A stretch of 44,612 bases of DNA from Pseudanabaena sp. FACHB-2040 (GTDB lineage: Bacteria; Cyanobacteriota; Cyanobacteriia; Phormidesmidales; Phormidesmidaceae), in the NCBI RefSeq assembly GCF_014696715.1, contig NZ_JACJQO010000039.1, positions 1 to 44,612 on the forward strand. Direction: 5' to 3'. Below, piece after piece: positions 9,109 to 11,243 of the stretch (the stretch's first letter is position 1; each line of letters starts with the position of its first letter). Under the pieces are notes generated by a model. That model ran no database searches. It saw nothing but the letters and a program-made list of their open reading frames with translations, and was not told the DNA's origin. The position numbers were made by a program, and so were the translations under genes.

Positions 9109-9207
9109 GGTACTGTCGCAAAAAAAATTAAAGCGCTATCTAAAGTGTTGTATTACGTGTATTTCAACTCCACTCATAGTGCTTCCAAAATTTTTTGCGA
9201 CAGTACC
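9109..9207. mobile_element. Palindromic mini-element with IS6-type ends, copy 1
   Basis: 99 bp, beginning GGTACTGTCGCAAAAAA and ending in its exact inverse. The interior is also near-palindromic (AAGCGCTAT near the left, ATAGTGCTT near the right). The ends resemble IS6-family terminal repeats (GG..CTGT.GCAAA). There is no coding capacity and no target duplication in the 8 bp either side. It joins the DsbA relic to the 3' end of the flavodoxin-fold gene. Confidence 0.8.
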
Positions 9208-9209
9208 TG

Positions 9210-9968
9210 CTAGCGTTTATGCTCAGGATTTTTGAAGTCTGTCTTACAACCTGCATCCCAAACGTCAGGTTGGTTCCCGTGAGGAGGAATACCTCCATTA
9301 TCTTTGAGTAGTCTGGCTATATGCATACAGTTCCAAGCTAAAAAGGTGGTATTGCGATTGGTAAATTCGTTCTCCGGCCCTCCAGACCCTGGGTCTAAAT
9401 AGGAAGGACCAGGGCCCACTTCGCCTAGCCAGCCTGCATCCGCTTGTGGAGGGATCGTATAGCCAATATGCGATAGGGAAAACAAAATATTCATAGCGCA
9501 ATGTTTAACACCATCTTCATTCCCGGTAATGAGGGTTGCCCCGACCTTCCCATAATCTCTGTACTGACCTTTCTCATTCAAAAGATGAGTATATCCATAC
9601 ATCCGCTCTAAAACTCGACTACAAACAGAACTTTTTTCACCCAGCCATACTGAAGTACACAGCACTAAGATGTCAGTTGCGTCAATTTCTTTCTGGATCT
9701 GGGGCCATTCATCTGCCTGCCACTCGTTAGTTTGTGACATATCCAACCCTAGCCCAGCTGCTATCTCATAATCTACAGGTCGAATGACTTGAGTGGTTAC
9801 CCCATTGGCCTCGAAAATAGCTTTGGCAATATTGATAACCCCTTGTGTATGGGATAACACTGGCGTTCTATTGAGTGTGCAGTTTAAAAAGAGAGCTTTT
9901 AAATCGCTATACTGCGCAGGGGCATTTTGGCACTGACGATCCGTGATTGTTTTGAGCTGTTGTGACAT
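9210..9968 (-). CDS. Flavodoxin-fold NAD(P)H-dependent oxidoreductase
   Basis: 252 residues of the NADPH-dependent FMN reductase / flavodoxin-like family. SDLKALFLNCTLNRTPVLSH is the first strand with the phosphate-binding loop. The segments ATDILVLCTSVWLGEKSSVC and YGKVGATLITGNEDGVKHCA correspond to the other two FMN-contacting loops. The C-terminal extension has a proline/glycine-rich part and an NTTFLAWNCMHIARLL helix. It probably reduces quinones or flavins with NAD(P)H. The stop lies within 3 bp of the mini-element, so the last few residues may have been set by that join. Confidence 0.88.
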   Translation of the reverse strand: MSQQLKTITDRQCQNAPAQYSDLKALFLNCTLNRTPVLSHTQGVINIAKAIFEANGVTTQVIRPVDYEIAAGLGLDMSQTNEWQADEWPQIQKEIDATDILVLCTSVWLGEKSSVCSRVLERMYGYTHLLNEKGQYRDYGKVGATLITGNEDGVKHCAMNILFSLSHIGYTIPPQADAGWLGEVGPGPSYLDPGSGGPENEFTNRNTTFLAWNCMHIARLLKDNGGIPPHGNQPDVWDAGCKTDFKNPEHKR

Positions 9969-9990
9969 GGCTTCGGCTTCTATATAAAAC

Positions 9991-10181
9991 GGTTGTGTCG
10001 CAAAAACTTATTAGGGGCAAACGATCGGTGTTGTTTGCATTCCCTTAAGCAGCAATTTCAAAGATCGCTTAGATAAATTTCACTCCAGACATACTGTCTC
10101 CTTGCTTGACTCCTTTTACTTGTCCTTTTCGAATCATATTCATCACTTCGATGGAGCATAATTCAACGCCCAACGATTGAT
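9991..10181 (-). pseudogene. IS6-family transposase 3' end with terminal repeat
   Basis: The minus strand from about 10147 reads EVMNMIRKGQVKGVKQGDSM then SGVKFI, stop, AIFEIAA, stop. That is the C-terminus of IS6-family DDE transposases (…RKGQ.RG…FI..IF..AA) with a premature TAA where CAA is expected. The terminal repeat GGTTGTGTCGCAAAAA lies at 9991-10006, in the right place for the element end. Everything upstream of the last ~45 codons is missing. This relic identifies the terminal repeats of the neighbouring mini-elements as IS6-like. Confidence 0.8.
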
Positions 10182-10281
10182 GATTGTGTCGCAAAAAATT
10201 CTGGAAACGCTATAGATAGGGCTGAAGTACATATGCTACAACGTTGCATGTAGCGCTTCAGAAATTTCTTGCGACACAACC
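10182..10281. mobile_element. Palindromic mini-element with IS6-type ends, copy 2
   Basis: 100 bp, from GATTGTGTCGCAAAAAATT to TTGCGACACAACC, with inner inverted blocks (AAACGCTATA / TGTAGCGCTTC). It joins the IS6 transposase relic to the alpha/beta hydrolase relic, with no target duplication seen. It is the same family as 9109-9207 and 11146-11243. Confidence 0.8.
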
Positions 10282-10433
10282 TCTTTGAGCAGCACCGCCA
10301 CCTGTTTTTCCCAGGAATGACCGCTGAGTGGAAACCCGTGAATCAACACAATAGGTTGACCTGATCCGAAATTTTCATAGTGAATATCAATGTTGGCAGA
10401 GTTTTCTTGACCGGACAGTAACGTAAGGCATGA
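10282..10433 (-). pseudogene. Alpha/beta hydrolase (haloperoxidase-like), 5' fragment
   Basis: From an ATG at about 10432 the frame should read MPYVTV, but one extra base shifts it before [20 protein letters not shown], then [20 protein letters not shown]. That is the N-terminus and oxyanion motif (HGFP) of non-haem chloroperoxidase-type hydrolases. It ends at the mini-element after ~45 codons. The GQENSANID leader is the same one now fused to the reductase at 1132-1821. Confidence 0.8.
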
Positions 10434-10494
10434 GGGTCTCTTTTGTGAATGAGCCGGGCGTATCTGATAGTCGGGGGATAGCACAATGTAGTTT

Positions 10495-10842
10495 CTATTC
10501 AGAAGGTCGGCAAGTCATGATCCCTTCCTTTTGAGTATTAGCATTGGGATTACTACCCATCGCTCGAAGCGTGATCGTCGGTTCATAGCCGGGGTAACAA
10601 CGTACCAAGACCGTATCTTCAGATTGAGTCACATACAGCACATGAACGGGTCTACCCCCTAGCACAGCAGGAACAAGGTTGGGAGGTGCGGGGGCTGTTG
10701 CAATAAGTGTTGACTGATTCGCCGGGTATATATCTGGTGTCTCCGCCGGAGTAGACTTTATTTGGAGCGATTGCAAACTGATCAGGACTAATGCTGTGGA
10801 AATGACTAGTGCAGTCAAGGATTGAGCGGATAGTTTGAACAT
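10495..10842 (-). CDS. Small putative exported protein, unknown function
   Basis: 115 residues, not recognised. The N-terminus [20 protein letters not shown] with ISLQ following is a plausible signal peptide or anchor. The mature part is proline-rich ([20 protein letters not shown]) and then contains a short beta-rich stretch with two cysteines ([11 protein letters not shown] and IMTCRPSE) that could form a disulfide. It lies between relics; lack of a known family makes it uncertain whether it is expressed. Confidence 0.5.
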
Positions 10843-10928
10843 AACTCAGAGGTTTTAGTTGAGATTTACTCAATAGAGAAAAGATGTCAGAGAGAAAGGT
10901 GGCGATCGCAGAATTTGCAGATGAATTT

Positions 10929-11145
10929 TTATTCGTCGGAATCACCAATTCCTAAATAGGCTAAATGGGCAGGATTCTTCACGTGGTGCTTAGCCATTAG
11001 ATTTTTTCGAGTGCGGCTTGCTTTAATTAAATCGGCTACTTTTTCGCCAATCATGATCGTTGGTGCGTTCGTGTTGCCTGTAGTAATTGCTGGCATGATA
11101 GAAACATCCACGACCCGCAAGCCCTCAATTCCATGCCCTCGCGGT
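10929..11145 (-). pseudogene. GMC oxidoreductase, C-terminal end only
   Basis: The frame gives [20 protein letters not shown] then [18 protein letters not shown], the strongly conserved C-terminal flavin-contact segment of GMC (choline dehydrogenase-like) enzymes with the active-site His/Asn region. It is followed by a 34-residue tail. The N-terminal ~450 residues are absent and the sequence is cut at the mini-element at 11146. Confidence 0.82.
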
Positions 11146-11243
11146 GGTTGTGTCGCAAAAATTCCTGAAGCGCTATCTGTAGAGTTACAACACGTGCAGT
11201 TCAACTCTATGTGTAGCGTTTCTAATTTTTTTGCGGTACAACC
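11146..11243. mobile_element. Palindromic mini-element with IS6-type ends, copy 3
   Basis: 98 bp, from GGTTGTGTCGCAAAAATTCC to TTTTTTGCGGTACAACC, with inner blocks GAAGCGCTAT and GTGTAGCGTTTC facing each other. It joins the GMC relic to the NTF2-like fragment, with no target duplication. An open frame across the join is an accident of the fusion. Confidence 0.8.

Follow-up and report, generated by a model that had tools for sequence, protein, structure and literature searches.

The window analysed here is the whole of contig 39 (44,612 nt) of Pseudanabaena sp. FACHB-2040 (genome G000; 6.28 Mb, 44 contigs), and it carries three palindromic mini-elements of about 100 bp, E1 to E3. We consider it fairly probable, for the explanation taken as a whole and judged from sequence, that E1–E3 are members of a cyanobacterial family of non-autonomous palindromic mini-transposons, which have the ends of IS6 insertion sequences, are mobilised replicatively and contain a pair of inner boxes resembling operators of NrdR. 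NrdR is the dATP/ATP-sensing repressor of ribonucleotide reductase (RNR), the enzyme of DNA building-block synthesis. The elements and their inner boxes lie in the window as follows.

9109..9207, no strand assigned: E1, a 99-bp palindromic mini-element; its outer 16 bp (GGTACTGTCGCAAAAA) are inverted perfectly
9134..9147, plus strand: E1 inner 14-mer box, left arm (CGCTATCTAAAGTG)
9168..9181, minus strand: E1 inner 14-mer box, right arm; gap of 20 bp between the 14-mers and of 18 bp between the 16-mers
10182..10281, no strand assigned: E2, a 100-bp palindromic mini-element, aligning best to other mini-elements on the minus strand
10208..10221, plus strand: E2 inner 14-mer box, left arm (CGCTATAGATAGGG)
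10242..10255, minus strand: E2 inner 14-mer box, right arm, with two mismatches
11146..11243, no strand assigned: E3, a 98-bp palindromic mini-element, also found between the same flanks in contig 79 of G366 (L065)
11171..11184, plus strand: E3 inner 14-mer box, left arm (CGCTATCTGTAGAG)
11205..11218, minus strand: E3 inner 14-mer box, right arm (CGCTACACATAGAG)

The mini-element family in cyanobacteria

An earlier note on this DNA had described three elements of 98-100 bp with IS6-type ends and a near-palindromic interior, and re-reading of the sequence confirmed their positions and ends. The palindromic interior was reflected in the DNA folding z-scores (E1 -7.3, E2 -5.4, E3 -5.7), with 0 of 200 shuffles being as stable for each element. 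Likewise, spans of 97-101 nt with arms matching in at least 14 of 16 bases numbered three in the window and one in total in ten shuffled windows. Chance or a local repeat as the origin of E1–E3 was ruled out by these two shuffle tests. E3 was only 70-77% identical to E1 and E2. The same note had expected further copies in the source genome; here it did not hold, as a blastn search of the whole genome with E3 returned E1, E2 and E3 only. An RNA family was rejected as the identity of the elements, since Rfam gave only sub-threshold matches near E1–E3; across six loci nothing reached the gathering threshold, with two sub-threshold matches at L042.

We have searched 388 genomes of the class, draft assemblies for the most part, with a covariance model (R1) built from five elements in both orientations. 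Matches (E ≤ 0.001) were obtained in 31 genomes and sorted by eye into members, doubtful cases and sequences outside the family. Clear members with TGTYGCAAA-type tips were recognised in 16 genomes (G000, G366, G068, G075, G088, G094, G118, G149, G162, G174, G177, G210, G236, G242, G280 and G292), and four genomes were doubtful (G238, G261, G298 and G124). The G124 sequence (L049:1501-1649) is 149 bp long, has IS6-type ends and reads by eye like a transposase C-terminus; it probably arose by simple deletion within an IS6, in contrast to the palindromic family. The match common to seven small genomes of one genus (g15) was a single conserved locus and was set aside as not belonging to the family, as was a different hairpin in G218; the R1 match of G308 stood outside the sorting by eye. 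Two further palindromes, L039:1501-1594 (G319) and L041:1501-1597 (G051), have similar inner boxes and wholly different terminal repeats (GAGTTTGGACTAA and GARCCTATCYGAA), and are perhaps the same core beneath the ends of other IS families.

The resulting collection comprised 49 mini-elements, among them the nearly identical copies of G242 and, from G366, the orthologue of E3. All measured 63-110 bp and none held a transposase gene. R1 scoring covered the best ten candidates per genome, so that the copy numbers (three in G000, eight in G118, ten in G174 and 11 in G242) are lower bounds; many carrier genomes had one detected copy. Short size, the lack of a transposase gene and the presence of several copies per genome agree with miniature inverted-repeat transposable elements (MITEs). 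The claim of the earlier note that the elements are mobile was supported by Phormidium tenue FACHB-886 (G242), in which eight copies were 93-100% alike (three of them matched only in part) and had differing flanks where these were compared.

An exact-pattern scan of one genome per species (84,980 species) returned 22 stretches, the chance expectation by our own arithmetic being about eight on the assumption of even base use. Ten were cyanobacterial, seven from FACHB-886 and three from strain FACHB-471 (G118), and nine of them matched on both strands; the 12 in other bacteria were single-strand matches only. G174 contained eight exact palindromic copies versus none for the reversed control pattern. 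Searches of a plasmid collection with E1, E2 and one G242 copy gave no match, and a G174 copy found one record, the complete plasmid2 of Scytonema sp. NIES-4073. Viral matches to a half-element pattern (L018-L020) were read and judged to be chance. No cyanobacterial palindromic IS6 mini-element was seen in the open-access literature searched, as far as its listings and the available excerpts go.

Ends, flanks and junctions

Among the transposase matches of the source genome, one IS6 was above the cut-off (L001, near-full-length, with one internal TAG) and four were weak. The near-full-length copy ends in GGCTGTGTCGCAAAAA and GGTTGTGTCGCAAAGA; the source genome hence contains an IS6 with ends of the type of the mini-element terminal repeats, as the earlier note had anticipated. 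IS6 copies of ~830 bp in G118, G174, G242 and the source genome have the ends GGTTGTGTYGCAAAAA or close variants, the same as the mini-elements, and the GGTAG tips of mini-elements were found on IS6-type ends too. Terminal repeats are therefore common to mini-elements and an IS6 of the same genome in G000 (where the IS6 has the internal stop), G118, G174 and G242. The available excerpts of PMC6807381 give the IS6 end as the 14-bp consensus GGTTCTGTTGCAAA with conserved GG, G7 and G10, and the mini-elements conform to this terminal inverted repeat, the tips being decayed in some copies.

At position 9, T was present in 19 of 19 distinct mini-element arms of G174 and in 2 of 24 of G118 and G242 together (2T:22C). 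The IS6-type ends followed the same pattern, with T:C ratios of 39:11 in G174 versus 3:42 in G118 and G242; arms within one genome are related, so that p-values for this comparison are overstated. The IS6-type ends were thus borne out both by identity with full-length IS6 of the same genomes and by the tracking of C/T at position 9. In addition, the outer 16 pairs of 24 aligned elements were paired in 94.8% of cells, versus 87.7% in shuffles (0 of 500 reached the observed value), and 29 cells were changed on both sides versus 11.4 in shuffles, chiefly at positions 4, 5 and 9. This covariation of the outer arms indicates that the two tips evolve together, as expected if one transposase must fit both. 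IS6 transposase matches numbered 30 in G118, 57 in G174 and 134 in G242, which are rich in mini-elements, and five in G000, one in G162 and none in G366 and G236, which are poor in them.

The likeness to IS6 was confined to the ends. No resemblance of the mini-element interior to IS6 ends was seen past about 16 bp, and the motif CRCTA, at 21-36 bp from the tip, occurred in 50 of 72 distinct mini-element arms versus 0 of 100 IS6-type ends. An autonomous element combining the tip with CRCTA was not evident among the matches listed for 18 genomes (none of those listed being from G174). An IS6 encodes its transposase, for which ~100 bp leaves no room. The earlier proposal of miniature derivatives mobilised by an IS6 transposase thus stood as regards ends and mobility, and was not supported as regards an IS6-derived interior, nothing common being seen beyond ~16 bp.

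We have then examined the 47 elements with both flanks for target duplications. Direct flanking repeats of at least 3 bp were absent (0 of 47; 0.8 expected for 3 bp). One element (L033) was flanked by an 8-bp repeat that had two mismatches, and none by a repeat with a single mismatch. Overall, no target duplication of 2-12 bp exceeded chance, nor did 8-mers common to different copies, as split duplications would give, bar E3 and its orthologue L065. The flanking duplication of MITEs and the 8-bp duplication of IS6/IS26 were both missing from the mini-elements, including the Scytonema plasmid copy, and the latter was missing from resident IS6 as well: pairs of IS6-type ends separated by 740-900 bp were present at 27 loci (32 rows, as five of the loci appear with two pairings), where no duplication was perfect and a single one had two mismatches (L232). 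G242 copies that are 97-100% alike lack duplications too, so that decay does not explain their absence.

The window features that adjoin the mini-elements are listed below.

8905..9108, minus strand: remaining 3' part of a DsbA-family gene, in which similarity to relatives and plasmids ends at E1
9208..9990, minus strand: segment with an FMN-reductase-like gene (9210-9968), also present in G366 and G030 in other context
9991..10181, minus strand: IS6-family remnant consisting of the terminal 162 bp (93% identity to G118 IS6) and ~30 bp; the core is missing and E2 cuts it off
10282..10484, minus strand: remaining 5' part of an alpha/beta hydrolase gene truncated at E2
10929..11145, minus strand: remaining 3' part of a GMC oxidoreductase gene truncated at E3

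To the left of E1, homology to six loci in six relatives (L126-L129, L131 and L130/L135, the last two being one place) ended at 9108, in one at 9109; it ended likewise against plasmids of Trichormus variabilis and Oscillatoria nigro-viridis, where the DsbA gene continues. The right flank of E1 (9208-9990) occurs in G366 and G030 with other sequence past both of its ends. The decayed IS6 end that the earlier note had placed between E1 and E2 was recovered at 9991-10152 (93% identity to G118 IS6); on the minus strand it reads by eye as an IS6 transposase C-terminus, and the ~30 bp beside it match the transposase N-terminal part weakly (E 6e-4). This remnant forms the left side of E2, and its other half does not lie to the right of E2, where hydrolase homology begins at 10282 (Aulosira laxa plasmid2). 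On the left side of E3, GMC oxidoreductase homology in several plasmids stops at 11142. The Aulosira plasmid holds a hydrolase, a hypothetical gene and a GMC oxidoreductase in the order of the hydrolase remnant, open reading frame and GMC remnant of the window, the GMC similarity being 67% over 97 bp only and the middle genes being matched by order alone. An old group of genes was thus probably truncated at one end by E2 and at the other by E3.

Similar junctions were found in other genomes. Flanks entered an IS6 within 3 bp of a mini-element in 5 of 96 cases (L057, L192, L195, L204 and L205), and the remaining IS6 half was not found within 300 bp on the opposite side at the four of these loci with a second flank or at E2. 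L031 (G094) and L035 (G280) have the element and one flank in common, while the other flank differs; the left flank of L062 is common to L188, where the sequence continues, and the right flank differs. For the joined flank pairs of ten elements from five other genomes, searched as empty sites, no match crossed the junction by more than 7 bp among the best 4-6 candidates per genome searched, the relatives being distant. At L070 the element was found at the same site in a relative. No simple insertion of a mini-element was found among the junctions examined, and the flanks that could be tested were shown by comparison with homologs to be junctions of unrelated DNA. According to the available excerpts of PMC7986276, when an IS6 transposes replicatively within one molecule, the DNA lying between it and its target is deleted or inverted and the duplication is lost. 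The combination of missing duplications and joins of unrelated DNA fits such a process.

As to the remainder of the window, an intact DsbA-family paralog lies at 20384-20941, and the whole contig is a mosaic of gene fragments that are duplicated and inverted (SDR, SnoaL-like, DsbA and L-PSP families), with homologs of the searched part on cyanobacterial plasmids. The 783-bp segment 9208-9990 fits exactly between E1 and an IS6 end, an arrangement that recalls an IS6 translocatable unit. An IS6-like end at 21399 was judged to be chance, lying inside a coding sequence (GPP34-like).

The inner box pair

The inner boxes have the consensus C[AG]CTA-N4-TAG-N-G and start at position 26-27 of most box-bearing arms. 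With up to two mismatches, a box was present in both arms of 38 of the 49 elements, in one arm of eight and in neither arm of three, and both-arm boxes occurred in 5 of 2450 shuffled interiors; these counts are descriptive, the box having been defined from the same elements. In 24 elements the 14-mers were separated by 18-20 bp, in 12 others by 29-30 bp, corresponding to 16-18 and 27-28 bp between the 16-mers. Eight of the 12 long-gap elements are G242 copies of one lineage, and G174, G088, G210 and G280 contributed one each. Two odd gap values came from a spurious match and from the 63-bp element (L199:1380-1442 in G242), a shortened variant whose outer arms are perfect and whose two inner boxes are collapsed to one. 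The distance from box to box hence steps by one helical turn, and the distance from tip to box is nearly fixed.

The interior is symmetric by conservation, with 71.6% of positions paired versus 29-44% when the arms were slid. No covariation was detected between the inner arms (71.6% versus 74.9% in shuffles), a result that favours, in each arm, a site bound as double-stranded DNA over a hairpin. A hairpin held by covariation was dropped, as the full 46-pair structure (76.5% versus 77.2% in shuffles) and its inner part likewise showed no excess.

We take the inner boxes to be NrdR-like, as is the box pair of the g15 genomes met among the R1 matches outside the family. The C and G 9 bp apart were conserved in 64 and 58 of 65 mini-element boxes, from which a matrix was built. 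The exact pair CTATCTGTAG-N15..30-CTACAGATAG occurred in four stretches of a viral collection of 2.9 million contigs. In two of them (L279 and L280) it lies ~20 bp upstream of phage nrdA-nrdB, with the 16-mers 15 bp apart; in the other two, from related contigs, it is within coding sequence. One small genome (G140) was used for a genome-wide test with the matrix. A box upstream of nrdJ was among four positions scoring at least 16.9 bits out of 1,648,834 on the whole chromosome, the pieces of which overlap by 100 bases, so that a single position may be counted twice; 0.001 such scores are expected over the 285 positions examined. The nrdJ candidate was first picked by eye from long open reading frames and was identified as RTPR (NCBIfam, E 2.9e-248); a class I RNR protein profile failed to find it. 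In the first 1.59 Mb of G140, one strong box pair stood out (40.6 bits, the next reaching 24.5), with the 18-bp spacing of the mini-elements. In a 10-kb stretch of Escherichia coli K-12, the best of 9,986 positions fell in the nrdH promoter. Column-permuted matrices did as well in 3 of 300 cases for nrdJ, in 7 of 300 for nrdH and in 0 of 300 for both, the background for these matrices being a quarter of the pieces. The same boxes were thus found at the RNR promoters of phage nrdAB, G140 nrdJ and E. coli nrdH, and the box pair is likely an NrdR operator.

Two side observations came from these loci. The g15 pair (L042:1526-1575; L037, L040, L044, L045, L047 and L048; G140:C1:915125) consists of NrdR-like boxes before a strongly conserved small-RNA-like sequence, GGTTCCCCATCACCCGGCCCC, with a terminator-like end. 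In L280:1-864, the phage NrdB frame matches the NrdB profile up to about residue 68 only, and the sequence that follows resembles an intein.

Proposed mechanism and alternatives

The ends and junctions suggest that an IS6-type transposase acting in trans likely moves the mini-elements, and that intramolecular replicative transposition, by deleting or inverting the DNA between element and target, likely leaves them without duplication. The box pair would serve as an NrdR operator. In the available excerpts of PMC9110341, an NrdR tetramer on two boxes is associated with a sharp 180-degree turn of the DNA. By analogy, and speculatively, such a tetramer on both boxes might fold the ~100-bp DNA back and join the ends for the transposase, and movement might thereby be linked to the dATP/ATP state that NrdR senses. 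A folding role of NrdR in transposition is possible, and we put forward as tentatively the wider idea of a host operator built into the mini-element, whose U-turn pairs the ends, makes an otherwise too short DNA transposable and ties deletions to the nucleotide state. The word stem "transpos" was absent from PMC9110341, no search aimed at an NrdR-transposon link having been made.

Several observations weigh against this explanation. G366 and G236 carry a mini-element and yet gave no IS6 transposase match. IS6 elements are described as making 8-bp duplications, and none were found here. Two-base flanking repeats numbered 6 versus 3.1 expected among the 47 elements, an excess that we read as chance. 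Eleven of the 49 elements lack a box in one or both arms. With the mini-element matrix, the phage nrdAB boxes came no higher than fifth of 13,351 positions in their contig piece. The nrdJ box has a low-scoring partner (2.4 bits) at a distance of 31 bp and itself lies inside the open frame, before the likely start, the start codon not being settled. The strongest G140 pair is upstream of the small-RNA-like sequence, not of an RNR gene. Finally, the available excerpts of PMC12051234 describe NrdR boxes 15-16 or 25-26 bp apart, with binding in vitro at 14-17 and 24-27 bp, good binding of E. coli NrdR at 15-18 bp and a derepressed reporter at 18-24 bp; the mini-element spacings (16-18 bp and 27-28 bp) agree with a pattern of two windows, but lie at the upper limit of those published or beyond it.

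The position of the best G140 pair and the spacing off the published optimum would also favour the boxes being the site of the mobilising transposase or of another regulator, their likeness to RNR promoters being a partial convergence of short palindromes. A transposase end in two parts would be consistent with the nearly constant distance between tip and box; however, the CRCTA part of the box was in 0 of 100 IS6-type ends, and nrdJ in the top four of 1.65 million positions, nrdH first in its locus and the exact pairs at two phage nrdAB operons speak for NrdR. We regard this alternative as somewhat unlikely. Slightly less probable, in our assessment, are ordinary IS6-derived MITEs that lost their gene long ago, with filler turned palindromic, duplications decayed and boxes without meaning. 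Such an origin agrees with the IS6-type ends, with the two IS6 MITEs recorded in ISfinder (excerpts of PMC6807381 and PMC7986276) and with the 149-bp L049, which by eye reads like a transposase C-terminus between IS6 ends. It would leave unaccounted for the restriction of CRCTA to mini-element arms (50 of 72, against 0 of 100), the nearly fixed box position with spacing stepping by one helical turn, and the missing duplications of copies 97-100% alike, for which decay is not the cause.

Homologous recombination between scattered copies, rather than transposition, could have produced the junctions, and the several near-identical 100-bp copies in G242 would offer substrates. However, E3 is just 70-77% identical to the other source-genome copies, the element of G094, with one detected copy, has a single flank in common with G280, and broken IS6 copies adjoin mini-elements on one side only; we judge recombination to be improbable. 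Palindromic recombination sites such as integron attC, or single-strand insertions of the IS200/IS605 kind, would likewise combine long palindromes with absent duplications, and single genes do lie between the window copies. Yet the tips and position 9 agree with those of IS6 ends and show covariation from arm to arm, and the inner arms do not covary, which makes this origin very improbable. Integron attC sites were in addition rejected by eye, their core motifs failing to fit.

Under the preferred explanation of IS6-type ends, replicative mobilisation and an NrdR-like box pair, the mini-elements would work like an IS6-mobilised MITE that leaves rearrangement seams, lacking, as do the resident IS6, the target duplication typical of MITEs and IS6. 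IS6-type elements drive much plasmid rearrangement, and few miniature forms are recorded. A family that keeps only the ends, with a phased putative operator pair, across distant cyanobacteria offers a way to ask what an IS6 transposase needs and how 100 bp can undergo synapsis, and poses the question of whether a nucleotide-sensing host repressor was recruited as a transposition cofactor. The mini-elements can serve to trace earlier rearrangements of cyanobacterial plasmids, and through them rearrangement may be connected with the nucleotide supply of the cell; if so, every new copy would leave a portable NrdR operator at a rearrangement seam.

Among known systems, the IS6/IS26-family MITEs of ISfinder (MITEBth2 and MITEHarch3) are, like the mini-elements, short, gene-free and assigned to IS6. 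Compared by description only, they measure 227 and 336 bp (excerpts of PMC7986276) against ~100 bp, and the mini-elements differ from them in being palindromic throughout, in the conserved box pair and in the lack of a duplication. The mini-element ends are like the published 14-bp consensus of IS6/IS26 insertion sequences (excerpts of PMC6807381), for which loss of the duplication by intramolecular replicative transposition is described (excerpts of PMC7986276); the mini-elements lack the transposase, and their interior is unrelated to the IS6 ends seen here. The cyanobacterial MITEs Nezha (known to us by citation only) and those of Anabaena sp. 90 are small inverted-repeat elements as well. 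Excerpts of PMC3542288 report no evident likeness of the Anabaena sp. 90 MITEs to the IS ends of that genome, whereas the mini-elements do match IS6 ends. With NrdR operators of RNR genes, the mini-elements have in common a palindromic box pair with conserved C and G 9 bp apart (excerpts of PMC9110341) and two spacing classes one turn apart; unlike these operators, the pair is on a mobile element, not upstream of an RNR gene, and is spaced by 16-18 or 27-28 bp instead of 15-16 or 25-26 bp.

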